Assembly: GCA_004375715.1 (NCBI GenBank) | Contig: SOKP01000016.1 | Location: 1-36,807 of the forward strand | Length of the DNA stretch: 36,807 bases | Direction of reading: 5' to 3' | Origin: Promethearchaeota archaeon | GTDB lineage: Archaea; Asgardarchaeota; Lokiarchaeia; Sigyniarchaeales; SOKP01 | Shown: positions 1,470 to 26,248 of the stretch, piece after piece | Position numbering within the stretch: position 1 is the stretch's first letter | Layout of the letters: the number at the start of each line of letters is the position of its first letter | Notes under the pieces: model-generated | The model's input: the letters and a program-made list of their open reading frames with translations, nothing else | The model's database searches: none | What the model was told of the DNA's origin: nothing | Position numbers and translations under genes: made by a program

Positions 1470-1473
1470 GGTG
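1470..1473 (+). promoter_or_regulatory. Shine-Dalgarno GGTG deciding an ATT start for eS19
   Basis: GGTG lies 7 nt before ATT 1481 and matches the archaeal 16S 3-prime end complement (GGUGAU). The eS19 frame is closed by TAA at 1460-1462, and no ATG, GTG or TTG occurs in frame between that stop and GTG 1688, which is far inside the conserved domain. Confidence 0.6.
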
Positions 1474-1480
1474 TAATATA

Positions 1481-1900
1481 ATTAGCATATATATCGTTGA
1501 ACCAGAGAAGCTTATTAAAATCTTAGCAGAAAAATTAAGAGAATTTCCCGAAATCAGCCCACCCGAGGGATCCGAATTTTGGAAGACTGCATTTTTTAAG
1601 GAATTAGCTCCTATCGATCACGAGAATTTCTGGTACATTAGATGTGCCTCACTTTTAAGAAAGATAAAGAAGATTGGTCCGATTGGAGTGAATAAACTCA
1701 GAAAACACTACGGAGGAAAAAATAGAAAAGGTCCAGGTAGACACCATAGTGCTAAAGGGAGCGGAAAGATCATACGCGTCGCATTACAGCAGTTAGAAGC
1801 CGCTAATCTAATAATGAAGCAAGAAAAGGATGGTAAAATAACTACACCAGAAGGAACTAGCCTTATAGAAAGAACCGCATATGGGATTTTAAGAAAGTAA
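1481..1900 (+). CDS. rps19e: Ribosomal protein eS19 (S19e), ATT start
   Basis: Translating upstream of the first canonical start (GTG 1688) gives a complete 139-aa eS19. It reads SIYIVEPEKLIKILAEKL, then the aromatic segment FWYIRCASLLRKIKKIGPIGVNKLRKHYGG, then the winged-helix end GSGKIIRVALQQLEAANLI. A start at 1688 would delete the first 69 residues, including most of the fold. With TAA at 1460 closing the frame, the best initiator is ATT 1481, preceded by GGTG; ATA 1478 is possible. It heads the operon eS19-PDCD5-eL39-eL31 and is divergent from the YhbY gene. Confidence 0.88.
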   Translation: MSIYIVEPEKLIKILAEKLREFPEISPPEGSEFWKTAFFKELAPIDHENFWYIRCASLLRKIKKIGPIGVNKLRKHYGGKNRKGPGRHHSAKGSGKIIRVALQQLEAANLIMKQEKDGKITTPEGTSLIERTAYGILRK

Positions 1901-1932
1901 TTTAAACAAACAATACTTCTTGGAGTTTAACT

Positions 1933-2271
1933 TTGAGCGACGAGGAAGAATTAGAAGCTATTAGGAGAAGGAAATTAGAGCAATTGCAACAGCAGGCAGT
2001 TCAACAACAAGTAGCAGCACAACAACAACAACAGTATACCAACCAAAAATACCAAATAATGCGAAAGATATTAAGTCAAGAAGGACGTCAGCGATTAGAA
2101 AACATTAGAATAGTCAAACCACAATTTGCTGAGCAGATTGAATTACAATTAATACAGTTATTCCAATCTGGAAAATTGCGTGGAGCTACACCGTTACCCG
2201 ATACAGAGTTTAAAAAAATTTTAGAAAAAATTACAGCAGGGAGCAAAAAAGAATTTAATATTAAAAAATAA
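1933..2271 (+). CDS. PDCD5/TFAR19-family DNA-binding protein
   Basis: The 112-aa product has the PDCD5 architecture: an acidic and basic N-terminal helix (SDEEELEAIRRRKLEQL), a glutamine-rich linker (residues about 20-36), and a C-terminal three-helix core with ILSQEGRQRLENIRIVKP and FQSGKLRGATPLPDTEFKKILEKI. Archaeal members are small chromatin- or translation-associated proteins that bind double-stranded DNA in vitro; the exact role is unsettled. The TTG start at 1933 has GGAG 7 nt upstream. It lies 32 nt after eS19 and 17 nt before eL39, the conserved archaeal order. Confidence 0.88.
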   Translation: MSDEEELEAIRRRKLEQLQQQAVQQQVAAQQQQQYTNQKYQIMRKILSQEGRQRLENIRIVKPQFAEQIELQLIQLFQSGKLRGATPLPDTEFKKILEKITAGSKKEFNIKK

Positions 2272-2288
2272 AATCTGAGATTAAGAAA

Positions 2289-2450
2289 ATGGCACGCAAT
2301 AAAGATTTACCTTCAAAATTACGAAGAGCTAAGAGCATGAAACAAAGTCGTTCAGTTCCAAACTGGGTTGTTCGGAGAACCGGGGGAAAAGTTAGATCAA
2401 GCCCTAATTCTAGAAGAGAATGGCGAAATAGTAGATTAAAGAGAGATTAA
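2289..2450 (+). CDS. rpl39e: Ribosomal protein eL39 (L39e)
   Basis: A 53-aa, very basic ORF starts at ATG 2289 and stops at TAA 2448-2450. It contains the eL39 hallmarks LPSKLRRAKSMKQSRSVPNW and a C-terminal SRREWRNSRLKRD. eL39 is the smallest 50S protein and lines the nascent-chain exit tunnel. The length is typical. It starts 17 nt after PDCD5 and stops 2 nt before eL31, consistent with translational coupling in one operon. Confidence 0.95.
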   Translation: MARNKDLPSKLRRAKSMKQSRSVPNWVVRRTGGKVRSSPNSRREWRNSRLKRD

Positions 2451-2452
2451 GC

Positions 2453-2893
2453 ATGGCAAAAAAAAAATCAAAAGAAATCAGTTTAGACGATTTAGAAGAA
2501 GAATTAGCTGAAGAGGAAATTAAAGAAATCGACGAATTCAGTTTAGATGACATATCTGAAGAAGAGGAAGTTAGCGAAGTTTTTGAAGAAGAACTTGAGG
2601 GATTAGAAGAAATAGAAGAAGAAAAACCCCCCGAAGAAGAAATTATAGATGAAAGAATATATGTTATACCATTAGCTAAAGCACGACACGGTCCAAGGAA
2701 TAAACGGGCTAAAAAAGCGGTTAGATATCTTAGAGAATTTATGGAGAGACATTTTAAACCCGAATCTTTAGTCATTTCGCAAGAAGTTAACGAGAAGATC
2801 TGGTCAAGAGGAATCCAAAAACCTCCAAGAAAAATCAAGATTAGAGCAACTAAGAACATTGATGGGCTAGTAGTCTGCTATCTGGCTGAATAA
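2453..2893 (+). CDS. rpl31e: Ribosomal protein eL31 (L31e) with acidic N-terminal extension
   Basis: The C-terminal part (about residues 65-146) is a full eL31 domain: DERIYVIPLAKARHGPRNKR, KAVRYLREFMERHFK, and ending KIKIRATKNIDGLVVCYLAE. eL31 sits at the polypeptide exit of the 50S subunit. The first 64 residues are an unusual extension, very rich in Glu and Asp after a short lysine patch (MAKKKSK). Typical archaeal eL31 is about 80-95 aa, so this 146-aa form is long. The ATG at 2453 follows the eL39 stop by 2 nt. A start at a later residue is unlikely because the acidic segment is continuous and in operon spacing. Confidence 0.93.
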   Translation: MAKKKSKEISLDDLEEELAEEEIKEIDEFSLDDISEEEEVSEVFEEELEGLEEIEEEKPPEEEIIDERIYVIPLAKARHGPRNKRAKKAVRYLREFMERHFKPESLVISQEVNEKIWSRGIQKPPRKIKIRATKNIDGLVVCYLAE

Positions 2894-3023
2894 ATCATTA
2901 ATCTCAAAATCTTCTTACACCTTATTTTAAAAATTTAGAATTTTTTATAGTCTTCGTCTTTTAATATATACACGTTTTACTTAACATATATCAAAATTAA
3001 ATTTATTGGTATTAATTCAGAAA

Positions 3024-3028
3024 GGTGA
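3024..3028 (+). promoter_or_regulatory. Shine-Dalgarno GGTGA before an ATT start
   Basis: GGTGA(T), a six-base match to the archaeal anti-Shine-Dalgarno, is 6 nt before ATT 3035. Its own TGA (3026-3028) closes the BRCT reading frame, so translation must begin after it. The alternative TTG 3050 lies 21 nt away, which is a poor spacing. Confidence 0.6.
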
Positions 3029-3034
3029 TTAATT

Positions 3035-3271
3035 ATTGCTGATTTATCTTTGATCAAATTTTATTTTTCAAATGATCTAAAAAAAATAGACAGAGACGAA
3101 GCAAAAAAAAGAGTTCTTAAAAATGGAGGACTTATTAGAGAAGAAATTTCTAACGATTTATGGTATTTTGTTACAAGTAATCCTAATGCAAGCTCTGAAA
3201 AGTTTAAAAAAGCCAGAAAACTTGGTGTAACTTTTATCGATGAGCTTGATTTTTTAAAAATGATTGAGTAA
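3035..3271 (+). CDS. Stand-alone BRCT-domain protein, ATT start
   Basis: The frame encodes about 78 aa that look like one BRCT domain and nothing else. After ADLSLIKFYFSNDL, residues show AKKRVLKNGGLIREEISNDLWYFVTSNPNASSEKFKKARKL as strand-helix-GG-turn-strand-helix, ending GVTFIDELDFLKMI, the usual last strand and helix. BRCT domains bind phosphopeptides or DNA ends and are typical of NAD-dependent DNA ligases and eukaryotic repair proteins; single-domain archaeal forms are uncommon. It has its own promoter region (TATA-like run near 2957-2971) and sits alone between eL31 and a convergent hydrolase. The ATT start is inferred from GGTGA spacing; TTG 3050 would remove five residues. Confidence 0.7.
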   Translation: MADLSLIKFYFSNDLKKIDRDEAKKRVLKNGGLIREEISNDLWYFVTSNPNASSEKFKKARKLGVTFIDELDFLKMIE

Positions 3272-3298
3272 TTTTTAGTATTTTTCTTTTTTCGTTCT
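3272..3298 (+). terminator. T-rich terminator after BRCT gene
   Basis: Three runs of T (5, 5 and 6 long) follow directly after the BRCT stop codon, in a convergent gap. Archaeal RNA polymerase terminates at such oligo-T runs without a hairpin. Assigned by composition only. Confidence 0.35.
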
Positions 3299-3328
3299 TC
3301 TTAGCTCGTCTCAATAAAAAAAAAAGAA

Positions 3329-5584
3329 CTAATATATTGTATGTGTGCTACTCATATTAACTAATCTGGGTAAGATGATGCTTGAATTATATAGCGGGCC
3401 TACAATAAGGGTATTATTTGCAATGTATGAGGTCAAATAATCTCTTGCTAATGGAGCTCCAGTATTAGGATTTGCCGCAAAACGGGGATAATTAGAACTC
3501 GAGATTACAACTCTAATCTTGTGTCCAGGCGCGAAAGAATAAGCCGATGACCAGCAATCAATCAATAATTCGTAAACATCATTTTGATTTCCTGACATAA
3601 GAACTTCAGATGTATAATTGTATCTATATCTAACAGTTAAGGATCCATCAGTAACCAACATTGATCGCCCATCGGGATATACATCGGTTAGTTTTATTGT
3701 GAAGTCTGTGTCCGTACAATTTGACGAAACGAATAAATTGCCCCAAATTCTTCCTACAGTCTCCACCGTTTCAGTTAATGTAGGAGTCTCAAATACCAAT
3801 ACATCGGATCGACTTTCTATCGATCTTTGATCCATGGGACCTGCTAAATCGAACGGTTGATTTTGGCCTCCTAAATTTGGAACAAGGTATCGAGGATCGT
3901 ATGAATAAGAGTAATTTTTATTTATTAAGCCAGCAGAAGTTTTACTTAATCCTCCATCAGCAGTAAAATACCAAGCATCGTCTATATGATCTAATGGCCA
4001 ATCGTATGCATATCTCCAATAATTCCAATCTTCGGAGTCATCGTCAACATCACCCATTAGATAATATGCAACTCTCGCTCCAGTCCAATCCGCCGGTATA
4101 CCTAACAATGCTTCGTCGAAAATTTCGGTTTCCCAACCGAGTAATAAATCAAACCCATTAGAATTATCAGGATATAATAACTCTCCTTGTTGCCCACCAT
4201 AAATCGAACCATGAGTCCATGGACCCATTACTAATTTTTGATGACCTCGTGCTCTGGTTGCTCCAAAATCGTCGTAACCGACATAACCATCAAGTGTTCC
4301 CTGCAAAAAATGATCGTACCAACCACCAACATGAATTCCATAGACTGAAACATTAGAATAATGTGGTCCAATTGGAATTGAGAGCGAGGTTGAATTGTAG
4401 AGTATTTCGTTTTTAGGAATCGTTTTAGAAAAAAGCGTATCTACTTGATACTCCCAATTTAATGGAGATGTGCTCTTTATCCACGTTTCAACCGAGGATT
4501 TATGATAGGACCCTTGAAAAATAGCGTGATCAAACATTTCAGGCGTGCCAAACCATAACTGTTGAGCAAGCAACCCTTCAGGACCCATTCCAGCGTAATA
4601 GTATTGGTTAAGGCATAAAGCTGATACACCAGCGCTTGCGATTTTTTTATTACACCAGCTTTGATTCATCAACCATTCAATTGTATCAACGCCATCGTTG
4701 TAGGAATTAATAAATAAAAGAAAATTATTTCCCCCTTCAGAATCATAAGTGCCCCTTAAGTCTTGAATAACTAAATGGTAATCCTGAAGTAAATATATAG
4801 GAGAATATAAATCCTTTGCCCAACCAGATTTACCATAAGGCGTTCTTATTAAAATTACAGGACGCGGGGCTCCAAATGATCCAGGAGCAAAGTAAACATC
4901 TGTAGCGAGATTAATATCGTCTCGCATTGTGACCATAAAAGTTTGTTTTTCTTGAACTTTATAAACTCCAGTACCGATAATCACTGTCGATGGAAAGGCT
5001 ATTAGAAAAATTAATAGAATATATTGGAGAACTTTAGGTATTTTCGCAATACGCCTTCTTTGATATTTTTCTAACAGTTTTTCTGTAGATAACAACGAAA
5101 TTTTTAGTCCATAATGTAAAAATGCACCAATACTTACGCCTATAGCAGCAATAGAGTAATAATCCAGTGAGATGAAAGTATACCAGAGAATTCCAAATAA
5201 GGGTGATGTAATATTGATTAGTTTTCCTAATAATACTAAATACTTATTTTCCCTATTTTCAGCTTGGATTTTAATGTAATTCCCGCTCGCCATTAATGAA
5301 TAGAATGATATGAAAACAGCAAAAGGTAAATAAATCGTTCCAAAGAGTATTACTATTACTTGTTTTAGGGTAAAATAAACAACCTCTTTTTGAGTAAATA
5401 GAGAATTTACACCGTCTGGAATACCACTACGATTTTTGTAATAATTAAGCACATAAGTGAGACAGTAGAAACCCCTACAAATCAACAAGATTGGAAGATT
5501 CTTTGTCATCATGTCTTCAATTTTCAAAAAACCTAGCTCTTCTAAAAAGAAAAAGAATAATATAACAAAATTTATCATATGCAT
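3329..5584 (-). CDS. Membrane-anchored CocE/NonD (X-Pro dipeptidyl-peptidase S15) hydrolase
   Basis: The 751-aa protein has about 210 N-terminal residues with five or six hydrophobic segments, then a CocE/NonD alpha/beta-hydrolase. The catalytic half begins MVTMRDDINLATDVYFAP and continues VILIRTPYGKSGWA, VIQDLRGTYDSEG, the probable nucleophile motif ASAGVSALCLNQ (Ser near 318) and GPWTHG with the probable His near 456. A C-terminal jelly-roll-like beta domain (about 600-751) contains the typical GHKIRVVISSSNYPRFAANP. Family members cleave esters, amides or X-Pro peptides; the substrate is unknown. Topology suggests an extracytoplasmic active domain. The nucleophile context GVSAL differs from the usual GxSYxG. 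It interrupts the conserved eL31-aIF6 order. Confidence 0.85.
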   Translation of the reverse strand: MHMINFVILFFFFLEELGFLKIEDMMTKNLPILLICRGFYCLTYVLNYYKNRSGIPDGVNSLFTQKEVVYFTLKQVIVILFGTIYLPFAVFISFYSLMASGNYIKIQAENRENKYLVLLGKLINITSPLFGILWYTFISLDYYSIAAIGVSIGAFLHYGLKISLLSTEKLLEKYQRRRIAKIPKVLQYILLIFLIAFPSTVIIGTGVYKVQEKQTFMVTMRDDINLATDVYFAPGSFGAPRPVILIRTPYGKSGWAKDLYSPIYLLQDYHLVIQDLRGTYDSEGGNNFLLFINSYNDGVDTIEWLMNQSWCNKKIASAGVSALCLNQYYYAGMGPEGLLAQQLWFGTPEMFDHAIFQGSYHKSSVETWIKSTSPLNWEYQVDTLFSKTIPKNEILYNSTSLSIPIGPHYSNVSVYGIHVGGWYDHFLQGTLDGYVGYDDFGATRARGHQKLVMGPWTHGSIYGGQQGELLYPDNSNGFDLLLGWETEIFDEALLGIPADWTGARVAYYLMGDVDDDSEDWNYWRYAYDWPLDHIDDAWYFTADGGLSKTSAGLINKNYSYSYDPRYLVPNLGGQNQPFDLAGPMDQRSIESRSDVLVFETPTLTETVETVGRIWGNLFVSSNCTDTDFTIKLTDVYPDGRSMLVTDGSLTVRYRYNYTSEVLMSGNQNDVYELLIDCWSSAYSFAPGHKIRVVISSSNYPRFAANPNTGAPLARDYLTSYIANNTLIVGPLYNSSIILPRLVNMSSTHTIY

Positions 5585-5963
5585 AATTGCTATGACTTAA
5601 CTTATAAAGATTTTTCCATAGAATTTCTTAATAAGAAGAGGTGTAGTCCTCCACTCGCTTTCTCCTTTAATTGCTAAGCCCTTTGTGAAAATTTTGTTCT
5701 TCTTTTGAAGTAGCATAGCATCTTTGTGAGCTTTTAGGAATCTTTTTTTTTTTCGTTGAAGGTTTTTTTATTAAAAATGATTAAGTTTACAATTATAACG
5801 ACTAAAAAGAAATCCAGGATTGTCTTAGGCTTTGGGAGGAGATTTGCTAAGAATAAAAATTCTAAATGGTTTGTAGTAGACCTACTAATCCTACGCATTT
5901 TTAATAAAATATTTATGATTTGAAACTTTATCCAACACATAAAATATAAGTTAGTTTTGTTAA
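5585..5963. other. 379-nt intergenic region between divergent hydrolase and aIF6 genes
   Basis: No convincing gene was recognised. A 46-codon plus-strand ATG ORF (about 5778-5918) and a 68-codon minus-strand ORF overlap each other and resemble nothing known. The segment has a small hairpin GAGG-TGTAGT-CCTC near 5637-5650 and a near-palindrome TAGTAG-AC-CTACTA at 5874-5887. It must hold promoters for both flanking genes. The 5640-5720 part is less AT-rich than the surroundings and could hold a small RNA. Confidence 0.4.
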
Positions 5964-6644
5964 ATGACGATTTTAAAGTATCAGGTTTTTGGAGGGAATT
6001 CGGTAGGTGTTTACTTAGCTGTAAATAACTCTTATGGTTTGTACCCTCCTACTCTAATCGCACCAACCATTGAAAAAATTAAAAGAACATTCAGCGAACC
6101 CTTTTTTCCTATTTCAATTAACAATTCAAGCTTAATAGGAGTATACACCGCAAGTAATAAAAATGGAATAATCGTTCCACACATAATTAGAGAGGAAGAA
6201 CTTCAAAATTTAAAGAGGTATACAAACAATTTAAACAGTGATTATCAAATAGGAGTTCTTAAATCTAAAGATAATGCATTTGGTAATTTAATATTATGTA
6301 ATGATAAAGGTGCGATAATCTCTTCTTTCTTAAAGGAGTACAAGAACTTAATTGAAGATATTTTAAAGGTTGAAACCATAGTTTATGAATATGTAGATAT
6401 GAATCTTCCCGGATCGATTTCAGTTGCTAACAATAAAGGCTGTCTGGTGCATCCGTTAACAACCGACGACGAGATCGAAATAATTACCGAAATTTTAAAA
6501 GTTAATGAAACGGACGTATCTACTGTAAACAGAGGTATACCTTATCTCTCTTCAGGTGCGGTTGTCAACGATCGAAGTGGCATCTTTGGTCATCAATGCA
6601 CGGGTCCTGAAATGATGCGTTTAACTAATGTGTTAATGCTATAA
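5964..6644 (+). CDS. eif6: Translation initiation factor aIF6
   Basis: The 226-aa protein is aIF6, a pentein-fold ribosome anti-association factor that binds the 50S subunit at uL14. Repeats of the pentein unit are visible: FGGNSVGVYLAVNNSYGL, LIGVYTASNKNGIIVP, GNLILCNDKGAIIS, PGSISVANNKGCLVHP and the final GAVVNDRSGIFGHQCTGPEM. Length fits archaeal aIF6 (about 220 aa). The ATG at 5964 has no clear Shine-Dalgarno. In many archaea it directly follows eL31; here a BRCT gene and a reversed hydrolase intervene. Confidence 0.95.
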   Translation: MTILKYQVFGGNSVGVYLAVNNSYGLYPPTLIAPTIEKIKRTFSEPFFPISINNSSLIGVYTASNKNGIIVPHIIREEELQNLKRYTNNLNSDYQIGVLKSKDNAFGNLILCNDKGAIISSFLKEYKNLIEDILKVETIVYEYVDMNLPGSISVANNKGCLVHPLTTDDEIEIITEILKVNETDVSTVNRGIPYLSSGAVVNDRSGIFGHQCTGPEMMRLTNVLML

Positions 6645-6751
6645 TTCTTACTATCCAAAAGTTATCTTTAGTTCTATTAAAAAAGCAAAATTTAATATTT
6701 TTAAAATTATTATCATGTTCAACTTCATTGATGTATTGGAAGTGTTAACTT

Positions 6752-6985: not shown

Positions 6986-7013
6986 ATAATTTTTAAAAAA
7001 AAAGTAGATTTGT

Positions 7014-7427: not shown

Positions 7428-7459
7428 TTTATGGTAAACTCTTTTTTGTGATTAAATCG

Positions 7460-8419: not shown

Positions 8420-8674
8420 GTGTCAAATAATTATCCTAAATATGATCAATATTCAAAATACGAAAAAAAGGGGAAATTATCCCTTTACGAGCGCATAGGC
8501 CTCTTTTTTCAAAATTCGAGAAGAATTATGAAAATTGCTAATAAACCGGGAAGGAAAGATTACTTCTTAGTGTTTAAAATATGTGCTATTGGAATATTAG
8601 TGTTAGGAGTTCTATCTTATGTGATTCAACTTATCTGGACTTTGATAAATGGTCTTTTAGGAATTGGTTCCTAA
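8420..8674 (+). CDS. secE: Preprotein translocase subunit SecE/Sec61 gamma
   Basis: The 84-aa protein has the SecE/Sec61 gamma pattern: an amphipathic helix (ERIGLFFQNSRRIMKIANKPGRKDYF) followed by one transmembrane segment (about residues 53-80). It clamps the SecY channel. The 30-residue polar N-terminus, rich in Tyr, Lys and Asn, is a small extension. The GTG start lies about 20-25 nt after a TATA-like TTTTTTAAATATTTATT (8390-8406), so the message may be leaderless. Its position after ftsY groups two protein-export genes. Confidence 0.85.
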   Translation: MSNNYPKYDQYSKYEKKGKLSLYERIGLFFQNSRRIMKIANKPGRKDYFLVFKICAIGILVLGVLSYVIQLIWTLINGLLGIGS

Positions 8675-9225: not shown

Positions 9226-10407
9226 TTAAAAGAAATAAACTACGACTTGATCTGGTACTCGTAATTCTTCCTCTTTGTTCTTACATGCGATAAATTTTAC
9301 TTTCATCTTTACAATTAGTGAGACCAATCGTTTAGAGAGAATTCCGTCAATAATAAGAAATTGTGTGGATTTAAACTCTTCAATTTTTTCAAAGACTTCT
9401 CCTACTGGGAGTTCAAATAATTTCTCCATACTCTTATTAAATCCTATGCTATGTCCGGGTTCTATTTTCTCGAGGCTATCGATTATCGCTTTTGGATTTT
9501 TTACCTTTAACTTCTTAAGCAATTTCTGCAACAAAGTACCTTTTCCAGTATCTTCCTTTTTCACTTTGCTATAAGATGTTTTTTTATCCCTTGCTGGTTT
9601 TTTGTTCTGTAGAGCCTTAATCATCTGTTTACGAGTAAGTTCCTCGACTTCTGAGCCTTCAGGTGCCCTAGCTACGAAATCAATTTTTGCTAATTGCATC
9701 AATTCACTCAAAATAATCGATCCACCTCTATCCCCATCTAGAAAAGCTATCACGGGACTTTTGGTCTTTATTAATTTTACAACTGATTTTGGTACGTGTG
9801 TGCCCTGGGTTGCAATGGTATTTTTAACTCCTATTCGTAAGAGGTTTAAAACATCTGCTCGACCTTCAACGATGATTAATTCTTGGGCAGAATCAACATT
9901 GGGACCTGCGGGTAAGTTCTCCGGACCCCAAGATGTTATTTCTCCAAGTTTAATACCTGCATCGATTTTTTCTTCGATCTCGCTCGATTCTAAAGAATTC
10001 TGATCCCATTTTTTTAATAATTCTGCAGCACGCTCAATAATTTGTTTACGCTTAGATTCTCTAACATCACGAATATCTATTAATTCGATTTCAGCCTCAC
10101 AAGGGCCTACACGAGAAACAGTTTCTACAGTCGCCGCTAACAGAGCAGTCTCTTTACGAGTTAGGCTAGAGGGGATTTTAATTATTCCTTCGGATATCCC
10201 GTCCTTAGATTCGTTATCAACCTCAATCCTCCCGATTCGTCCAGATTTTTGAAGATCACGTAAATCCAAGTCTAAGAGCAGCCCCTCAGTTTGTCCAAAG
10301 ACTGCTCCCACTATGTCTGATTGTGCAACGACACCTTTAATTTTGAACTTAACTTCTATAACATATTTAGTAGTAAAATCTACTGTATTAGATGTAATTT
10401 TCATCAC
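9226..10407 (-). CDS. dnaG: Archaeal DnaG-like protein (Toprim, exosome-associated)
   Basis: The protein matches archaeal DnaG: N-terminal TKYVIEVKFKIKGVV and DIVGAVFGQTEGLLLDLDLRDLQKSGRIGRIEV, then a Toprim domain (about 170-255) with the catalytic Glu in LIIVEGRADV and the DxD in VIAFLDGDRGG, then a lysine-rich linker (about 275-300) and a C-terminal domain. Archaeal DnaG binds the RNA exosome and has primase activity in vitro. In-frame GTG 10407 and ATG 10404 both lie inside a GGAGTGAT Shine-Dalgarno-like motif, so ATT 10398 is a better-spaced alternative start. A 500-nt AT-rich region lies upstream. Confidence 0.92.
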   Translation of the reverse strand: MMKITSNTVDFTTKYVIEVKFKIKGVVAQSDIVGAVFGQTEGLLLDLDLRDLQKSGRIGRIEVDNESKDGISEGIIKIPSSLTRKETALLAATVETVSRVGPCEAEIELIDIRDVRESKRKQIIERAAELLKKWDQNSLESSEIEEKIDAGIKLGEITSWGPENLPAGPNVDSAQELIIVEGRADVLNLLRIGVKNTIATQGTHVPKSVVKLIKTKSPVIAFLDGDRGGSIILSELMQLAKIDFVARAPEGSEVEELTRKQMIKALQNKKPARDKKTSYSKVKKEDTGKGTLLQKLLKKLKVKNPKAIIDSLEKIEPGHSIGFNKSMEKLFELPVGEVFEKIEEFKSTQFLIIDGILSKRLVSLIVKMKVKFIACKNKEEELRVPDQVVVYFF

Positions 10408-14838: not shown

Positions 14839-14844
14839 GGGGAG
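14839..14844 (+). promoter_or_regulatory. Shine-Dalgarno GGGGAG before a non-canonical start
   Basis: GGGGAG is 6 nt upstream of ATC 14851 in the exonuclease frame. That frame is closed by TAA 14818-14820 and has no ATG, GTG or TTG before the catalytic motif I at about 14905. Confidence 0.5.
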
Positions 14845-14850: not shown

Positions 14851-15438
14851 ATCTTTCGCGATATTGTAGACTTTATCAAAAAACCAAATTATGAGAAAAT
14901 TGCGATAATTGATATCGAGACTACGGATTTAAAACCAGATAATGGTTTAATTATCGAGATAGGTATTGTTGAACTTGATTTAATTACGGGAGCAACTAAA
15001 ATTCTTTTTGATTCATTTGTGAAGGAACCTGAATTTGGGGAAGAACATAAGAATGCATGGATTTTCAATAATTCTGATTTAAAATTTGAAGATTTTGCTG
15101 ACGCACCTGATTTAAACAATGTAAAAAATCAAATCCAAGAAATTTTCGATCATTATTCATTGACTGCATATAACACTTCGTTCGATTTTAGATTTATGGA
15201 ATCAAGAGGTTTTGTTATCAAAAAGGATATCCCAGATATTATGGCAGTAGCGAAAGAGACATGTAAAATTATGCGTGCAAGAGGAGGTTATAAAATTCCA
15301 AAGATGCAAGAAGCTTGGGATAATCTTTTCCCTAACACAAATTATATAGAGAAACATAGAGCAGTAGACGATGCAATTCATGAGGCTAAAATGCTTTTTG
15401 AAATGTATAAGCGAGGAAATTATAAAGTTGAACCATAA
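14851..15438 (+). CDS. DnaQ-like DEDD 3'-5' exonuclease, non-canonical start
   Basis: The frame encodes about 195 aa of a DEDDh exonuclease. Motif I is AIIDIETTDLKPDNGLIIEIG with the catalytic DxE, motif II is the YNTSFDFRFME segment near residue 112, and motif III is KHRAVDDAIHEAKML with His and Asp. Such enzymes proofread DNA or trim RNA 3-prime ends. The first canonical start in frame (GTG 15019) would lose motif I, so initiation must be upstream. ATC 14851 behind GGGGAG is the best candidate; ATT 14863 is possible. It stands alone between the Lrp regulator and arcS. Confidence 0.82.
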   Translation: MFRDIVDFIKKPNYEKIAIIDIETTDLKPDNGLIIEIGIVELDLITGATKILFDSFVKEPEFGEEHKNAWIFNNSDLKFEDFADAPDLNNVKNQIQEIFDHYSLTAYNTSFDFRFMESRGFVIKKDIPDIMAVAKETCKIMRARGGYKIPKMQEAWDNLFPNTNYIEKHRAVDDAIHEAKMLFEMYKRGNYKVEP

Positions 15439-19148: not shown

Positions 19149-19153
19149 AGGTG
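19149..19153 (+). promoter_or_regulatory. AGGTG ribosome binding site before tfb
   Basis: AGGTG overlaps the in-frame GTG 19151 and sits 6 nt before ATT 19160. The same GGTG-to-ATT spacing is seen at the eS19 and BRCT genes, so the GTG is more likely part of the ribosome site than the start. Confidence 0.45.
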
Positions 19154-19159
19154 TTATTT

Positions 19160-20122
19160 ATTTCAAGTTGGAATCAAAGCGATGCCACCGTAGAAAATAA
19201 TGCGGTGCTAAGTCAAGATAATTGTAGTGAATGCGGTAAAAATATTTTATTTGATCAAAATAGAGGTTTATTAGTTTGTGAAAAATGTGGTTTAGTTCAT
19301 TCCGAAAAACACATAGATCAGGGTCCAGAATGGCGTGCTTTTGATTCGGATCAAAGAAAGAAAAGGACAAGAACTGGTGCTCCTATGACATTGATGATCC
19401 ACGACAAAGGCTTGAGCACTATGATTGATTGGAAGAATAAAGATATCTTTGGCAAAGAAATCTCGGCAAAAATCAGAGGGCAGATATATCGTTTGCGAAA
19501 GTGGCAATCCCGAATTAGAGTCTCAGATGCCACCGAAAGAAACTTAACCTTTGCACTAAGCGAGTTAGATAGAATGTCTTCGAATCTCGATCTTCAGAAA
19601 AATCTCCGCGAATGTTCAGCTAAGATATATAGAGACGCCGTTGAAGCTCACTTAATTCGGGGAAGGAGTATCGAAGGAGTTGCGGCTGCAAGTTTATATG
19701 CTGCATGCAGAATGTTTAAAGTCCCGCGCACTCTAAATGAAATTGCTGAAGTCGCTCGTGTTAATAAAAAAGAGATAGGGCGATCTTATCGATTTATCTC
19801 AAAGGAGTTAGAACTAAACTTAAATCCCACTAAGCCCTTAGATTTTCTTACTCGCTTTGTTTCAGAACTTGAATTATCCACTGAGTGTCAGAAGATCGCA
19901 AAAAAAGTAATCAAGATGGCTGAACTAAGAGGCCTTACCTCTGGACGTGGTCCAACTGGAGTGTGTGCCGCAGCTATTTATGCCGCGAGCATCATTGCTA
20001 AAGAGAGGAGGACGCAACGCGCAATAGCTAAGACGTCTCAAGTCACAGAGGTAACCGTAAGAAATAGATTTAACGAGTTAGTAGAAAACTTAGATTTGGG
20101 AATTAAAGGAAAGGAAACATAA
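19160..20122 (+). CDS. tfb: Transcription initiation factor B (TFB/TFIIB)
   Basis: The protein of about 320 aa is TFB, which bridges TBP-bound promoters and RNA polymerase. It has a zinc ribbon with CSECGKN and CEKCGLV (about residues 21-42), the B-reader/linker [11 protein letters not shown], and two cyclin folds (about 125-215 and 220-315) with [17 protein letters not shown] and [17 protein letters not shown] as the repeated helices. The length is normal. GTG 19151 is in frame but lies inside an AGGTG Shine-Dalgarno, so ATT 19160 is a probable start. T-rich tracts downstream (20168-20250) probably terminate the message. Confidence 0.94.
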
Positions 20123-20640: not shown

Positions 20641-20788
20641 TTCTCAGTAAATTAAGTTTTTATAGCTTAACTTTTATTTTATATTAAAGAAAGTAAGTAG
20701 AGTTTACTTTAAATAAATTCTTTTTAAAATAATAAGACGCACTTTAGAAGAAGGAATATCGCTCAAAAAGAAGGTGTATTGAAGATCA

Positions 20789-21268
20789 TTGAGTTATTCA
20801 AATGATGAACGCATTTTAAAGAAAATACTTAAGGAAATTATTAATAGCACGCCCGGCTTGAAATATGCTATAATCATAGATGATACAGGGATTACTATAA
20901 TGAGCGAATCAAAATTCATTTTAAAGTCTCCTACCGAAGAAAATATTTCTGTTGAAAAAATAGGTGCGATTGGAGGAGCTGTATTTACGGCTGGCGAGGA
21001 ACAAGGATATATCTTAGGGTATGGAAAGATACATCTACAAATAACTGAATATTTTAAAGGTATGATCTTTTCGCTAAAGACTGGAAAAGGCATCCTATGT
21101 ATAGCAACTGATAAAAATATTCAAATAGGACTCGTGAGAGCAATTATGAACAAATACTCACAAAAGATTGCTTCAGTTCTAAAAAGCTATCTTCAACAAG
21201 AAGATCAAGGAGAAATTAAAAAAGAATTAGCAGAACTTTTTAGTTCAGATTCGATAAGTCTTTTATAG
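20789..21268 (+). CDS. Roadblock/LC7 domain protein
   Basis: The 159-aa protein has a Roadblock/LC7 pattern: helix ERILKKILKEIINSTPGLKYAIIIDDTGITIMSES, then ISVEKIGAIGGAVFTAGEEQG helix, YGKIHLQITEYFKG, MIFSLKTGKGILCIATDKNIQIGLVRAIM, and a C-terminal helical tail. Such domains dimerise and can act as GTPase-activating or scaffold subunits. It is 148 nt after the smaller related gene, on the same strand. The TTG at 20789 is the only start in the open frame (TGA at 20780). Confidence 0.8.
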   Translation: MSYSNDERILKKILKEIINSTPGLKYAIIIDDTGITIMSESKFILKSPTEENISVEKIGAIGGAVFTAGEEQGYILGYGKIHLQITEYFKGMIFSLKTGKGILCIATDKNIQIGLVRAIMNKYSQKIASVLKSYLQQEDQGEIKKELAELFSSDSISLL

Positions 21269-21365
21269 ATCGCTATCTTCTTTTAAATCAGCATAGATTG
21301 TTGCCTGAGAACACTAACACACATTTATCATCTTATGGTCATACCATAAACATCAAATATATTCT

Positions 21366-21545
21366 CTCGTGCTAGGCGGTAATTTCTATGCCTTTTTGGG
21401 GCATAATCATATCTGCGTGCTGGGTCTGACTCCAATCTCATCGCAAGGTTATACCATAACTTGATTAAGAGCCCATTTTTGACGCAGTAAGTTGTTGATT
21501 AATAAACTCAGGATGTAAGCAAAAGTTTGCACGCCTAATCACGGG
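21366..21545 (+). ncRNA. Candidate structured RNA
   Basis: The gap between two convergent genes holds a nested structure and is less AT-rich than its flanks. The closing helix joins CTCGTG-C-TAGGCG (21366-21378) to CGCCTA-AT-CACGGG (21532-21545), 12 pairs with one small internal loop. Inside are a hairpin TATGCC/GGCATA (21387-21405), a long arm with CTGCGT/ACGCAG (21413-21418 with 21482-21487), TGGGT/GCCCA (21421-21425 with 21471-21475) and an apical CAAGGTTAT/ATAACTTG hairpin (21444-21463), and a hairpin GCAA/TTGC (21519-21530). Two G-U pairs are possible only on the plus strand. A TATA-like TTTTAAAT lies at 21281-21288. No SRP, RNase P or tRNA signature was found, so the family is unknown. 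Confidence 0.5.
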
Positions 21546-21654
21546 TTATCATAAGCGTCCTCGAATATGCTAATGTTCCTTCATCATTTTCCCAAGTACT
21601 AATATAAAAAACAAGTTAAAAAATTTATTCAATTTATTTTAGTGGAAAACTAAA

Positions 21655-22407
21655 CTATTTTTGGTTAATAAGAGTTAAGAGTTCTTTATACGACCCCAAT
21701 AATTGCTTGATTTTGGGATGATTTAATCCATCATTAGGAAGGCCTTCAAATATAGCCGTGCCATCATTTAATACAAGCATTTTATCTGCCCAATTTTCTA
21801 TAAAAAAAAGATTGTGAGTGGTAAATAAAATTGTCATCTTTTGTTCTTTTTTAAGGGTTTTAAAAATTTGTAGGTGGTTATAAATTGATTTAAAATCAAG
21901 ATTTGCGAAGGGCTCGTCTAATATTAATAGTTTAGGCTTCATTACTAATAGCCCTGCTAAAGCAGCTCGTTTTTTCTGTCCCCAAGATAAATCGTATGGC
22001 GAACTTTTAGCGTATTGCGATAAATTAACAGCTTCGAGCGCCCATTCAACTCTTTTGTTCACTTCAGACTCTTCAAGACCGAGATTCCTTGCTCCAAATC
22101 CTACATCCTCTCCTATTGTTGGGGCAAATAATTGATCGTCTGGGTTTTGGAATAAAAATCCGATTTTTTGCCTAAGTCTCCATAGTTGTTTTTTATCTCT
22201 AGTCAAGAGTTCGTTGAAAATTTTAATAGTTCCAGACTTAGGTTTTAGTAAACCAACTAACAATCTAAGAAATGTAGTTTTACCAGACCCGTTATTCCCT
22301 GTTAAAGCGTAGATCGAATTTTCTTTTATGGTTAACGATAAATCGTTAAGAGAAAAATTTGAATTATACTCAAAATTTAAATTTTCGACTTCAATTAGAC
22401 TAATAAT
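21655..22407 (-). CDS. cbiO: ECF transporter ATPase CbiO, ATT start
   Basis: Reading past TTG 22263 gives a full ABC ATPase of about 250 aa: IEVENLNFEY, Walker A LTGNNGSGKTTFLRLL, Q-loop FLFQNPDDQLFAPTIGEDV, signature LSWGQKKRAALAGLL, Walker B LLILDEPFANLD and the switch His in LFTTHNLFF. Starting at 22263 would lose the Walker A. The open frame has no ATG, GTG or TTG in the preceding 150 nt; ATT 22407 sits 6 nt after GGGGGT within the cbiQ end and is the best start (ATT 22404 is an alternative). It overlaps cbiQ by 13 nt. It powers the Ni/Co importer with CbiQ and CbiM. Confidence 0.9.
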   Translation of the reverse strand: MISLIEVENLNFEYNSNFSLNDLSLTIKENSIYALTGNNGSGKTTFLRLLVGLLKPKSGTIKIFNELLTRDKKQLWRLRQKIGFLFQNPDDQLFAPTIGEDVGFGARNLGLEESEVNKRVEWALEAVNLSQYAKSSPYDLSWGQKKRAALAGLLVMKPKLLILDEPFANLDFKSIYNHLQIFKTLKKEQKMTILFTTHNLFFIENWADKMLVLNDGTAIFEGLPNDGLNHPKIKQLLGSYKELLTLINQK

Positions 22408-23198
22408 TGTAAAACCCCCATGTATATCTGTTCTAGATTGATAAAATAGATGAAAGAAATCATAATAAACACAAACATCATTACTATTAGTATATCCGCT
22501 AATTTTACCTTCTTCGAAGAAAAGGTAATTTTACCTGAAAATCCCCTCATTTTTAAACTCTCGTATAACATTTCGCTTCTTTCCATATTGTGTACTATAT
22601 TTTTTCCCATTATGAATCCGTGAGTTTTAAGCCTTTGCCAATACGATGTAAAGTTTTTTCCTCTTAAATCTTGTGCTTCCAGTACTTTTTTGTTAGATCT
22701 TGCGAGAATTGGGATGTAATGAAGCATGATAATTATACTCCCTACAAAAAACGAGGGAATTGCTCTTAGTTTAGTTAATGCTTCAATAAATTCAGAATAC
22801 GTTAAAGATGTTAGAAAGGTTAAGAATACAAATGCCGCCCCTATAATTCGAAAAAATAGAGTTAAGGCGTAAGCTAATCCTTCTACATAAACATTTATGG
22901 GAATTTCAAGGTTCAATTGAAAGAGTACGGTGTTTCCAATGTAGAATGGAACAAAAATTGTAATAAGAAGTATGAAGGGAATTAACGCTTTAAGTTTTGA
23001 AAAAATCTTTAATAGATGTAAACGAGACACCAAATTAAAAAATATAACAAAAATAATAATCGTAATTACTAAATAAACATCATTTATAATAAGAAAAGGT
23101 ATAACTAAGATAAACGGGAGAATAAATCGAATTAATGGATGAATCTTATTTAAAAAATTTTTCTCATCTTCGTGTTTGAAAGGTAATTCGATGTCCAA
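22395..23198 (-). CDS. cbiQ: ECF transporter transmembrane protein CbiQ (EcfT)
   Basis: The 267-aa protein has five or six hydrophobic segments and the EcfT coupling-helix motif EAQDLRGKNFT (about residue 177) with a second motif YESLKMRGFSG (about residue 216), the two A-R-G-like signatures that contact the ATPase. It starts at TTG 23198 after a GAGAGAAAATAA leader. It is transcribed with cbiO and divergently from cbiM. The substrate metal, nickel or cobalt, cannot be decided from sequence. Confidence 0.9.
   Translation of the reverse strand: MDIELPFKHEDEKNFLNKIHPLIRFILPFILVIPFLIINDVYLVITIIIFVIFFNLVSRLHLLKIFSKLKALIPFILLITIFVPFYIGNTVLFQLNLEIPINVYVEGLAYALTLFFRIIGAAFVFLTFLTSLTYSEFIEALTKLRAIPSFFVGSIIIMLHYIPILARSNKKVLEAQDLRGKNFTSYWQRLKTHGFIMGKNIVHNMERSEMLYESLKMRGFSGKITFSSKKVKLADILIVMMFVFIMISFIYFINLEQIYMGVLQLLV
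22414..22419 (-). promoter_or_regulatory. GGGGGT ribosome binding site before cbiO
   Basis: GGGGGT in the last codons of cbiQ (ATG-GGG-GTT) lies 6 nt before ATT 22407, fitting internal initiation of cbiO by coupling with cbiQ. Confidence 0.4.
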
Positions 23199-23396
23199 TT
23201 TATTTTCTCTCTTTTATTTTCTATTAATTAGCGAAGTCTATAAGATTAATCTTTATATGAAACTCAAATAGCTCCAAATTGATACTTCATATTAATTTAT
23301 AAAATTATCATATCGTTTTTAAATAATACTAAATTATGATAAAATATTATTCATACCAAAAAAATTAATCGATAATAAAATATTGGTGAATAAAAA
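23199..23396. promoter_or_regulatory. Divergent promoter region of the Ni/Co importer
   Basis: The 198-nt space between cbiQ (minus) and cbiM (plus) is AT-rich with several TATA-like runs (for example TTTTTAAATAATAC at 23318-23331). An imperfect inverted repeat around ATGATAA and TTATTCAT (23336-23354) could be a metal-regulator site. No NikR-type GTATGA/TCATAC pair is present, only a single TCATAC. Confidence 0.35.
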
Positions 23397-24068
23397 ATGC
23401 ATCTACCTGATGGTTTATTAAACCCTATAACAACTATCGTGCTCTGGATTGTTACAATTGCGATTATGATTCTAGGATATTTTAGAATGGGCAAAATGTT
23501 TGAAAAAGAAGATTCTGAAAAGATGATTCCCTACATTGGAGTATTGGCAGCAATTATTTTTGCGTTTCAATTTGTTAATTACCCCGTTCCAGGAGGAACT
23601 TCTGGCCATTTGGTTGGAGGTACTCTAGTAGCTATTATACTTGGTCCTTGGGCGTCTGTTATAGTATTATTTTTGATTTTAGTTATTCAAAGCCTTTTTG
23701 GGGACGGAGGAATTACCGCTTTAGGACCAAATGCCTTTAATATGGGGATAATATGTGGTATTGTGGGATTTTATATAGTGGTGTTGCTTGTAAGGATTTT
23801 TAATAAAACATCACTGAAAAAGGAATTAAAAGTTACAATCGCAACTGCTATTGGATCTTATATATCCATCGTCTTAGCCGCTTTCATTTGTGGTATTGAA
23901 ATTGGTATTAGTGGCACAATTCCAATTGAAATTGCTGTCCCGGCTATGGTTTTCTGGCATATCCTAATAGGCATAGGTGAAGGTTTAATTTCTGCTTTAA
24001 TTGTATATTATATTTATAAAACTAAGCCTGATTTTATTACTTCTGAATCAATACTGAAGGTGAAATAA
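23397..24068 (+). CDS. cbiM: Ni/Co-binding ECF component CbiM
   Basis: The 223-aa membrane protein begins MHLPDGLL, whose N-terminal amine and His2 coordinate the metal in CbiM/NikM. Further family motifs are FAFQFVNYPVPGGTSGHLVGG, GPWASVIVLFLILVIQSLFGDGGITALGPNAFNMG and WHILIGIGEGLISALI. It has about six or seven membrane segments. GGTGA lies 7 nt before the ATG. CbiM replaces the S component in this transporter class. It is followed after 2 nt by the PDGLE subunit. Confidence 0.95.
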   Translation: MHLPDGLLNPITTIVLWIVTIAIMILGYFRMGKMFEKEDSEKMIPYIGVLAAIIFAFQFVNYPVPGGTSGHLVGGTLVAIILGPWASVIVLFLILVIQSLFGDGGITALGPNAFNMGIICGIVGFYIVVLLVRIFNKTSLKKELKVTIATAIGSYISIVLAAFICGIEIGISGTIPIEIAVPAMVFWHILIGIGEGLISALIVYYIYKTKPDFITSESILKVK

Positions 24069-24070
24069 AA

Positions 24071-24379
24071 ATGAGTATAATAAAAAGGAATAAATGGCCT
24101 TTAATCACAATTCTAATAATAGTCGTTGCTCTAATGACTGTTATAGCAGTAGGTTTTACAATTGGATTTCTCTCTGAAAATCCTGATGGGTTAGAAAGAG
24201 TTTTAATAGATTACTATGGTGAAGAATGGCTTGAAAATCTGTTTTCTCCCTGGATTCCTTTCTTAAGTTGGATTACTAACGATTATGTGGCAGGAATCGT
24301 CGGAGTTGTTCTATCTATAACAGTATTGATGGGCACATTTTATCTCATTACACGCTTCAAGAAAAAAAAATTAGAATAA
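24071..24379 (+). CDS. PDGLE-domain subunit (CbiN/NikN-like)
   Basis: The 102-aa protein has an N-terminal transmembrane helix (about 8-34), the loop FLSENPDGLERVLIDYY with the PDGLE signature, a FSPWIPFL segment and a C-terminal transmembrane helix (about 72-95). PDGLE subunits accompany CbiM/NikM and are needed for metal loading. GGTGA is 7 nt upstream of the ATG, in the end of cbiM. Organised with cbiM as an operon. Confidence 0.88.
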   Translation: MSIIKRNKWPLITILIIVVALMTVIAVGFTIGFLSENPDGLERVLIDYYGEEWLENLFSPWIPFLSWITNDYVAGIVGVVLSITVLMGTFYLITRFKKKKLE

Positions 24380-24488
24380 ACAGGTATTTCAGAGATGAAC
24401 TCACATCTGAAAAACAAAAAATTTATTCATATGGTCTACTCTCTGGTTTATAATACCAATTTAAATTTAATAGTTTCATCTTAAATTA

Positions 24489-25088
24489 ATGAACTTAATT
24501 TTCTTCATAAAATCAGAAACAGTAAACATTAGCAGGTATACGATTAAAGATATCCCCGGATCATCTGGAAGACTTGACGTAATCTCAAGATGTATTTTAT
24601 CGGCAATTATAAATGGAAACAACCTTGAAGAAAATATTCAGATATGGGTTTTTCTGGATAAGTATGGAACTTTTGTCTTTGACTCTGATCTGTTCAATGA
24701 TGAGTCTTTCCCAAAAAACGAAATTCTTTTGACAGATTTTTTTGTTGAATTTATTAAAAAAACGAAAAAAGGAGAAAATTATCCCGAAACTCCATTGGAC
24801 TCAATAAAATACTCAACATTAGATATTTTTGACGCTATTAAGAACTTCATTGAAAAAAAATATAAAGTTTATACATTAAATGAGGAGGGAATGGGTTTTA
24901 AAGAAGTATTTGAGGAACTGAATTCAAATGATAATTTGCTATTTGTTTTAGGAGATCAGAGCGGTGATCTTCTAAACGATAAAGAATTGAAGAAGTTGAA
25001 TTTGGTAGATGTAAGTCTTGGAAATCAGTCTTATTTGGCTTCATCGACGATCCGATTAATTAAAATGAATCTGCAATTATTAGTATGA
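24489..25088 (+). CDS. trmY: TrmY tRNA pseudouridine-54 N1-methyltransferase
   Basis: The 199-aa SPOUT protein has the TrmY signature KDIPGSSGRLDVISRCILSAI (about 20-40), IQIWVFLDKYGTFVFD and the C-terminal knot FVLGDQSGDLLNDKELKKL with LGNQSYLASSTIRLI. TrmY methylates pseudouridine at position 54 of archaeal tRNAs, in place of ribothymidine. The window also carries Nep1, the rRNA counterpart of the same reaction. The ATG lacks a clear Shine-Dalgarno and may be leaderless. Length is typical. Confidence 0.92.
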   Translation: MNLIFFIKSETVNISRYTIKDIPGSSGRLDVISRCILSAIINGNNLEENIQIWVFLDKYGTFVFDSDLFNDESFPKNEILLTDFFVEFIKKTKKGENYPETPLDSIKYSTLDIFDAIKNFIEKKYKVYTLNEEGMGFKEVFEELNSNDNLLFVLGDQSGDLLNDKELKKLNLVDVSLGNQSYLASSTIRLIKMNLQLLV

Positions 25089-25152
25089 TAAATTTTTTAT
25101 TTTAGAGTACTTTTAAATTTTATTATCGTTAAAACTTAATAATGATTAAATA

Positions 25153-25836
25153 TTGAGCAAAATAGAACAAGCCACTAATAAAAGGAGCAATCAGAGAAGA
25201 ATTTTAGAAATATTTGTCGAGCTCCCGGCTAAAAAGTTAGTTAAATGGGGATTTACACCAAATATTCTTTCATTTTGTGGCTTTTTCTGTTCAATAGCTG
25301 TCGCTATTTTACTCTCATTAGGAGGGTTACATTTTCCCTTTCCTATAGCTTGGATCGTCCCATTTTTGATGTTCTGGGCGGGTGCTTTTGATGTATTCGA
25401 TGGAGAAATAGCCCGGATGACTCAGAAAATTTCCATTTCAGGAGCGTTTTTAGATTCGAACTTAGATCGCCTTTCTGATGCCATTATAGTCTTTGGGTTA
25501 ATAATAGGCGGATATTTTAATTACTTAATTGGATATGCGATACTATTCTTAATTATCATGATTTCTTATATTCGCTCCAGAGCTGAAAATGAAGGTATCG
25601 ATATGAAAGGCGTAGGCTTTATGGAAAGAGCTGAAAGATTAATCATCTTATGGTTCGCTTTTATCGCAGAATTTTGGATCTATTTCTTGACAAAACTATT
25701 TTATGGAGCTCCTTTCGAATTATTTTTCCCGATATTCACTATAATCTTTACAGGACTACTAATTTTGACAATAGTACAAAGATTAATATTCTCTTTTAAA
25801 GAATTAAGTAAAATTGAAACGCACGATAAAAAATAA
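25153..25836 (+). CDS. CDP-alcohol phosphatidyltransferase
   Basis: The 227-aa integral membrane protein has the CDP-alcohol phosphotransferase active site DVFDGEIARMTQKISIS followed by GAFLDSNLDRLSD, fitting DGx2ARx8Gx3Dx3D. About six membrane segments are visible. In archaea such enzymes join CDP-archaeol to inositol phosphate, serine or glycerol phosphate to form polar lipid head groups; an archaetidylinositol-phosphate synthase-like role is likely but the alcohol cannot be fixed from sequence. It starts at TTG 25153, 64 nt after trmY. Confidence 0.88.
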   Translation: MSKIEQATNKRSNQRRILEIFVELPAKKLVKWGFTPNILSFCGFFCSIAVAILLSLGGLHFPFPIAWIVPFLMFWAGAFDVFDGEIARMTQKISISGAFLDSNLDRLSDAIIVFGLIIGGYFNYLIGYAILFLIIMISYIRSRAENEGIDMKGVGFMERAERLIILWFAFIAEFWIYFLTKLFYGAPFELFFPIFTIIFTGLLILTIVQRLIFSFKELSKIETHDKK

Positions 25837-25975
25837 CCACTTCTGCTTGTAAGAAAACATTAATAGAGCGAATATTAGCTAATTTTCTAAGTGAAAGAAA
25901 AAATTTTTAAAGTTTGTCTTATTTAAAGGACATAGAAATAGAACATAATTACATATAGAAAAAAGCTGATTTTTT

Positions 25976-26248
25976 ATTCCTAAGAAGAGAAGAAGTGGCG
26001 GTAAAACCGGCTCAAGTAAGGGAAGTTATAAAACTGTTCAATGCAGTAAATGTGGACGAAGGGTTCCTCGGAGTAAGGCTAAGGCAGTAACGAGGCGAAC
26101 ATCTCTAGTTGATGGGCGGATGTTCATGGAGCTTAAAAAGACTGGAACGATCATTATGTCTGGAAGTACGAAAAAATATTATTGTATAAGTTGCGCTGTT
26201 CATAGCCATCAAGTTAGTCAACGAAGTAAAGCTTCAAGAAAGTTTTAA
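25976..26248 (+). CDS. rps26e: Ribosomal protein eS26 (S26e), ATT start
   Basis: The 90-aa protein reads PKKRRSGGKTGSSKGSYKTV, then CSKCGRRVPRSKAKAVTRRTSLVD and YYCISCAVHSHQV with two CxxC zinc pairs, matching eS26. Family members start MPKKRR; here the codon at that position is ATT 25976, and an in-frame TGA at 25967-25969 leaves only TTT TTT ATT before the Pro, so ATT is the only sensible start. GCTGAT lies 5 nt upstream. A TATA-like AAATTTTTAA is at 25901-25910. eS26 is found in TACK and Asgard archaea and eukaryotes and binds the mRNA exit region. It ends 1 nt before the convergent PIN-TPR gene. Confidence 0.93.
   Translation: MPKKRRSGGKTGSSKGSYKTVQCSKCGRRVPRSKAKAVTRRTSLVDGRMFMELKKTGTIIMSGSTKKYYCISCAVHSHQVSQRSKASRKF

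Follow-up and report, generated by a model that had tools for sequence, protein, structure and literature searches.

Comparative analysis of contig SOKP01000016.1 from a Promethearchaeota archaeon, the 36,807-nucleotide stretch of DNA that we call the window, indicates that AUU, AUA and AUC (collectively AUH in mRNA, ATH in DNA) very probably serve regularly, as a minority class, to start translation in a clade of Lokiarchaeales; the class depends upon a Shine-Dalgarno (SD) sequence, is presumably read by an initiator tRNA with the CAU anticodon and probably includes a feedback through the initiation factor aIF1. The window (contig C139) has 31% GC and belongs to a metagenome-assembled genome (MAG) of the order Lokiarchaeales with 320 contigs, 3.07 Mb and 84% completeness. 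Six of its genes start with ATH: those of eS19, a BRCT-domain protein, TFB, CbiO and eS26 with ATT, and that of an exonuclease with ATC (table 1). These represent 6 of the 33 window starts located by script, among which the NTG starts (ATG, GTG or TTG) are our own assignments; the start of ftsY was not located, and 7 of the 41 window frames, including that of DnaG, lie outside the list of located starts.

Start Codons at Orthologous Positions

The codon at the homologous start position was compared across relatives, gene by gene. The species compared are related, not independent, and the p values reported below are guides only; nearly all the sequences are MAGs, taken as assembled. SD strength is expressed as the predicted duplex with the anti-SD of 16S rRNA in kcal/mol, with cut-offs of -3.5 and -5. 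Since the 16S rRNA ends with GGCTGGATCACCTCCT (its 3' end being GGATCACCTCCT / GGCTGGATCACCTCCT), the anti-SD is intact, as the comparison suggested in a first-pass annotation of the window could establish. Pfam matches confirm the identity of eS19, eS26, BRCT, TFIIB, ABC ATPase, RNase_T and uS8.

For eS26, 30 of the 34 listed matches had loci and were read, 29 of these 30 loci being parsed. The start column of the 16 rows from our genome and its genus has ATT in 10 cases, ATG in four and TTG in two; in the 13 rows from other genera of the order it has ATG nine times, TTG twice and GTG and ATT once each, and no other codon occurs in the 29 rows. The preceding motif GCTGAT, which the first-pass annotation had considered an SD site, does recur in relatives (GCTGA in most genus rows read), but it is inexact, with one mismatch to the anti-SD (one change from GGTGAT) and a duplex of -3.5.

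In eS19, codon and SD change together. Among 20 rows from our genome and genus, 11 have ATT with a GGTG SD (-5.4 to -5.9) and nine have ATG without SD (-2.4 to -3.1). A partly overlapping set of 45 named loci from close Lokiarchaeota shows ATG in 37 (-0.1 to -3.9), ATT in seven (-5.4 to -5.9) and TTG in one (-1.9). The eS19 genes of Harpocratesius and of two Prometheoarchaeum records have ATT with an SD near -7.5, and one further Lokiarchaeota record has ATA (-6.9). Two loci show ATC (L315) and GTA (L314), but with an ATG three and five codons upstream, respectively. The eS19 frame is bounded by stops in three relatives (G019, G030 and G034).

The BRCT gene, in 17 rows from our genome and genus, has ATA in 10, ATG in four and ATT in three, always behind an SD of -7.4 to -17.0; ATA in one genome (G007) and ATG in another (G008) follow 24 identical upstream bases. 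Ribosomal protein uS8 (orthologues of the frame at 4141-4521 of locus L193) shows ATA in nine of 17 genus rows, behind GAGGTG, with ATG in five and TTG in three. The exonuclease has ATA in G006, G007, G008 and G012 and TTG in G013, each behind GGGGAG or GAGGAG; a sixth relative (G010) was excluded because its start could not be aligned. Hence, an AUH codon occupies a column in which orthologues carry ATG, GTG or TTG in eS26, eS19, BRCT, uS8 and the exonuclease, and relatives have these codons or another ATH at the same column. In CbiO, ATT is present in seven of seven species, and in one of these (G011) a TAA lies in frame two codons upstream of the ATT; an eighth match (G019, 43% identical) was excluded as another member of the family. 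TFB has ATT in all six readable genus species, and three of these (G006, G018 and G021) have a stop in frame between the GTG or GAG of the SD and the ATT. The N-termini of six order-level relatives are different and cannot be aligned at the start.

Could the true start be an ordinary ATG, GTG or TTG lying elsewhere in frame, with ATT merely encoding isoleucine? In-frame GTG codons do overlap the SD in TFB, DnaG and a second form of aIF1 (see below), both GTG and ATT are possible in most readable rows of DnaG, and uS8 has an inner methionine codon seven codons downstream. Yet stops intervene between SD and ATT in TFB, and lie one to three codons upstream of ATH in eS19, BRCT, CbiO and aIF1, in several species overall; aIF1 has no NTG ahead of its zinc finger in 16 genomes; and relatives place ATG or TTG at the very column of ATH. 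We consequently regard this possibility as very unlikely. Equally, one could suppose that ATG was turned into ATT by assembly errors, pseudogenes or RNA editing, given that nearly all the sequences are MAGs; but identical codons turn up in genomes that were assembled separately, in intact frames of ribosomal proteins, at the start and with an SD, which makes this idea barely credible.

The alignments therefore confirm, at the level of sequence, that AUU and AUC are real start codons in the window genes examined. The ATT and ATC starts proposed by the first-pass annotation for eS19, BRCT, the exonuclease, CbiO and eS26 are all borne out, by orthologue columns or upstream stops. Its extension of the pattern to TFB and DnaG holds for the former, whereas in the latter most readable rows have an in-frame GTG as well as the ATT; and its start set of AUU and AUC, real as both are, was incomplete, for AUA serves too (BRCT, uS8, exonuclease). 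Candidate ATH starts in ArsA, aIF6, eL31 and one uS3 row were rejected, as an ATG adjoins.

The Start Codon of aIF1

Loci for aIF1 (PF01253) were available and read for 30 of the 37 listed matches in relatives. In 16 of the 19 rows from the same genus, a TGA is followed by three codons and then by ATT-AAA-GAC/GAA-GAC/GAA, leading to the zinc finger; ATG, GTG and TTG are all absent ahead of the first cysteine, and every one of these genomes has an SD duplex of -7.9 (loci L119-L123, L129, L131-L138, L140 and L141). In the remaining three (G003, G012 and G018), a second form of the gene has GAGGTGA before ATT (SD -11.7 to -15.9) and its only NTG is the GTG within the SD; from the sequence, ATT is likely to be the start here also. 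In a sister family within the order, two genomes (G028 and G032) again have no NTG, showing ATA with an SD of -4.8. G036 has ATA (-8.3) with a GTG inside the SD, and G030 offers two candidates, ATA CCA behind GGAGTGA (-5.9) and, three codons later, a TTG. The start is TTG in other rows (G034, G037 and G038) or, in four rows of family f4 (G027, G029, G033 and G035), ATG. The core motifs RKWGR and ASGGT look intact in our reading.

A poor, conserved start codon thus lies on the gene of a fidelity factor: in Sulfolobus, aIF1 is reported to promote discrimination against start codons that are not canonical (PMC6237735). By analogy with infC (IF3) of Escherichia coli, the AUU start of the aIF1 gene suggests autogenous control.

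Association of AUH Codons with SD Sequences

Orthologues of the close clade formed 85 clusters, 18 of which were dropped for lack of a clear start column, leaving 67 with 1284 rows; nine clusters had been left out as paralogous in a preliminary run. The ATH counts of these clusters take no account of TFB, CbiO, the exonuclease and aIF1, which were read on their own, because a start column chosen by NTG misses genes that have mostly ATH. The start columns contain ATG 918 times, TTG 98, GTG 84, ATT 43, ATA 34 and ATC 4, plus TTA 6, GTT 2 and GTA 1; other codons, including TCA 16, AAA 13 and AAT 10, we read as alignment slips. For comparison, 87 internal methionine columns (1496 rows) have ATG 1262, ATT 43, ATA 37, TTA 37, TTG 22 and ATC 11, plus GTT 7, GTA 6 and GTG 5. 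How often ATH occurs at start columns is consequently no evidence by itself, since internal methionine columns match it. What differs is the choice of leucine and valine codons, almost all TTG and GTG at start columns, as befits start codons, and mostly TTA at internal sites.

A difference also lies upstream. The 1270 rows with sequence context were reduced to 1076 by merging identical contexts, and 16 of the 54 ATH contexts were removed as alignment slips, having an NTG within one codon. The 38 retained (ATT 19, ATA 16 and ATC 3, from 10 genes) have a median SD of -8.0, with 37 at or below -3.5, the sole weaker one being eS26 of G021, and 30 at or below -5. The removed slips have a median of -0.9 and only one of 16 at or below -5. 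Random internal in-frame ATH codons (n=502) show a median of -2.9, with 196 reaching -3.5 and 108 reaching -5, so that the association exceeds the chance level (Mann-Whitney p ~1e-14, rows not being independent). At the gene level, the 10 ATH clusters differ from 60 ATG clusters with p = 4e-4. ATG contexts (n=765) have a median of -3.8, with 408 at or below -3.5 and 272 at or below -5; TTG contexts (n=85) have a median of -6.1 and 55 at or below -5; GTG contexts (n=72) have a median of -2.0 and 19 at or below -5. An SD thus permits AUH without demanding it, for ATG and UUG starts are often led by an SD too. The rule advanced in the first-pass annotation, that messages with an SD tolerate AUU, stands insofar as AUH nearly always comes with an SD and the two change together in eS19, but an SD is no guarantee of AUH.

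A census of our own genome, covering 0.53 Mb and 447 gene models, gives a crude excess of about 30 ATH codons at SD spacing, or about 7%; the genome-wide scale is an estimate from this portion of the 3.07-Mb draft. In-frame counts versus the out-of-frame expectation were 31 versus 14.2 for ATT, 23 versus 13.8 for ATA and 7 versus 3.0 for ATC. GTA (8 versus 2.6) and TCA (12 versus 5.6) were also raised; the census is noisy, and the case is not rested on it. GATC and GGAG, tried as SD anchors, gave a weak signal.

Genes without an SD Sequence

Among 291 rows of ATG starts without SD, TATA-like hexamers have a frequency per 5-nt bin of 0.24 at -30 to -26 and 0.21 at -35 to -31, against 0.09-0.15 in all remaining bins from -16 upstream. 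The 38 ATH contexts have a peak of 0.37 at -45 to -41 and a further 0.21 at -30 to -26. The former position is suggestive of a promoter followed by a leader, as expected for genes with an SD, in a sample that is small and of non-independent rows. The rise at ATG starts without SD is modest and in part shared by the ATH contexts; genes with AUG or GUG and no SD may be leaderless.

Initiator tRNA

The stem pattern GGGCTNATAACCC, with any base allowed at position 34, finds matches in 20 of 39 relatives. Fifteen initiator-pattern matches have CAU in a tRNA-like context and five have another base at position 34 outside such a context; two more non-CAU matches (G011 and G029) were not read. ARAGORN calls tRNA-Met in three of the 20 loci. 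Our own genome gave no match to the initiator pattern; a tRNA search of it had 19 matches, among whose loci ARAGORN named none with CAU. Interrupted genes can escape such searches. At eight loci (L354-L359, L361 and L362), of which ARAGORN called one, the T arm of the initiator tRNA gene seems to be split, TTCAA being followed by non-tRNA sequence; this would be an unusual position for an intron. Because several initiator tRNA genes look interrupted in this way, missing matches elsewhere mean little.

These data bear upon the idea that AUH is read by a special initiator tRNA whose anticodon is altered or carries a modification (GAU, for example). That AUU, AUA and AUC all serve would be unusual if the anticodon were CAU. 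However, CAU is the only anticodon found in a tRNA-like context among relatives, modification being invisible in DNA, and we consider a special tRNA highly improbable.

Phylogenetic Distribution

Within the phylum, eS26 matches were obtained in 196 of 227 genomes, and 57 of 70 further Asgard loci were read, 13 being unparsed or misparsed. Five of these loci are from the same family (TTG 4, ATG 1). The 52 from outside the order have ATG, TTG or GTG in all but one, that of G071 from another Asgard family (L435), in which ATT follows AAGGTGA. Among eS19 outgroup rows, the only convincing ATH is that of Candidatus Sifarchaeum, outside Lokiarchaeales, with ATC behind GGAGGT (L327, before the match at 10001). 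On the sequences compared, frequent use of AUH is evident in the close clade only, and beyond it AUH is seen in single genes (eS19, aIF1 and eS26).

We found no report of AUU or AUA starts in Asgard archaea, or on aIF1, among the matches listed in open-licence PMC papers.

Mechanism and Comparison with Known Systems

How might such codons be tolerated? The SD would dock the 30S subunit so that a near-cognate AUU, AUA or AUC occupies the P site, where the ordinary CAU initiator tRNA could pair with the A and U of the codon, the mismatch at the third position being tolerated and methionine presumably inserted. Messages without SD, probably leaderless, would lack this anchor and stay with AUG or GUG. 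High levels of aIF1 may then repress its own AUU start and tune the other AUH genes, in a probable feedback loop.

Several points weigh against this explanation. The starts are predicted from sequence. The raw ATH rate is the same at start columns (81/1284) and internal methionine columns (91/1496), and four genes (BRCT, eS19, eS26 and uS8) supply 45 of the 57 undeduplicated ATH rows of the 10 clusters. The SD of eS26 is weak (-3.5). In aIF1, a second in-frame ATT stands right before the first cysteine, though further from the SD, and the SD spacing, as judged by eye, is about 8 nt, longer than the 5 or so estimated likewise at most other genes. The search for aIF1 in our own MAG, 84% complete, gave no match. 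Other families of Lokiarchaeales retain two ATH rows of 142, one of them convincing (eS26 of G038), and the pipeline has an error level of two unconvincing ATH rows in 105, from nine loci of Methanoperedenaceae type.

A different objection concerns meaning: the AUH starts could be real and yet result from relaxed selection under an AT-rich bias, without regulatory significance even for the AUU of aIF1. The window is poor in GC, AUG to AUA or AUU are single changes towards A+T, and codons flip between close relatives, as in the BRCT genes of G007 and G008 with their identical upstream bases. On the other hand, aIF1 keeps ATT in all 16 genus genes of the first type while other genes flip, and AUH occurs almost only with an SD, which implies constraint, not proof of regulation. 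We regard relaxed selection as a substantial possibility, if short of probable.

AUU starts are textbook rarities in prokaryotes. Mitochondria use AUU, AUA and AUC as starts, and chloroplasts also have non-AUG starts; the clade studied here resembles these organelles in its recurrent unusual starts, while being a free-living archaeon with intact SD pairing. Compared with the usual GUG and UUG starts, its AUH contexts are about half as many (38 versus 85 for UUG and 72 for GUG), a count that excludes TFB, CbiO, the exonuclease and aIF1. A survey of 36 groups of prokaryotes inferred a change from AUG to AUU once in 61,358 ancestral AUG starts, and reports that the SD matters more in genes whose start is not AUG (PMC5622118).

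The closest parallels are with factors of start codon fidelity. Eukaryotic eIF1 (SUI1) autoregulates through an AUG in poor context. The homologous aIF1 likewise has a suboptimal start on its own gene, but this is AUU or AUA with an SD, unlike the poor-context AUG of a scanning system. The other parallel is infC of Escherichia coli, where AUU also lies on the gene of a factor rejecting non-AUG codons; aIF1/SUI1 is presumably not homologous to IF3. In contrast to infC, about a dozen unrelated genes read in this clade use AUH, and the feedback proposed for aIF1 would be deduced by analogy. For infC, a start at ATT (ATC in Streptomyces) with autoregulation by IF3 is described (PMC5472188). We tentatively propose, holding it close to an even matter but slightly on the doubtful side, that the clade has an enlarged start set (NUG plus AUH), gated by the SD and with aIF1 ruling the AUH class via its own AUU, which would constitute a third independent feedback of fidelity through a bad start, beside those of IF3 and eIF1.

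If true, this feedback of aIF1 would be at work in organisms related to the archaeon from which eukaryotes arose. Start-codon fidelity becomes testable in these organisms, with aIF1 and its AUU as the lever. There is also a practical consequence: gene finders restricted to NUG probably misplace AUH starts and hide their SD. SD sequences are stated to be not prevalent or rare in Lokiarchaea in reviews (PMC7531240, PMC12993045), a view that would partly reflect NUG-only annotation, if such annotation was used.

Features of the Window

The coordinates of the start sites and SD sequences are collected in table 1. A search of the window with Rfam gave no match.

Table 1. Start codons and SD sequences of window genes (duplex values in kcal/mol).
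Feature	Coordinates	Strand	Remarks
SD core GGTG of eS19	1470-1473	+	Duplex -5.4; present in close clade ATT rows, nothing comparable in ATG rows
ATT start of eS19 (ribosomal protein S19e)	1481-1483	+	Genus column ATG/ATT; PF01090 from residue 3
SD AGGTGAT of BRCT gene	3023-3029	+	-10.8
ATT start of BRCT-domain protein	3035-3037	+	Genus column ATA/ATG/ATT; in-frame TGA just upstream; PF00533
ATG start of aIF6	5964-5966	+	Duplex +0.8; lacks an SD and may be leaderless
GTG start of secE	8420-8422	+	Duplex -0.8; lacks an SD and may be leaderless; GTG or ATG in close relatives at this position
Possible ATT start of DnaG	10396-10398	-	Alternative GTG at 10405-10407; most readable relatives have the two codons in frame
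SD GGGGAG of exonuclease gene	14839-14844	+	-6.7
ATC start of exonuclease (RNase_T family)	14851-14853	+	Alignable relatives ATA 4/5, TTG 1/5; PF00929
SD AGGTG of TFB gene; its GTG in frame, not likely the start	19149-19153	+	-6.3; stop between SD and ATT in three relatives
ATT start of TFB	19160-19162	+	ATT in 6/6 genus species read; PF00382
SD GGGGGT of CbiO gene	22414-22419	-	-9.6; GGAGGT or GGT in relatives
ATT start of CbiO (ABC ATPase), second ATT of the frame	22402-22404	-	ATT in 7/7 species; PF00005
SD-like GCTGAT of eS26 gene	25965-25970	+	Recurs in genus; duplex -3.5
ATT start of eS26 (ribosomal protein S26e)	25976-25978	+	Column ATG/TTG/GTG/ATT; residue 1 aligns to position 1 of PF01283

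Further along the window, positions 28917-30848 encode a protein of 643 amino acids having no Pfam match at E 0.01, which starts with GTG; its relatives have ATT, TTG or GTG at the start.

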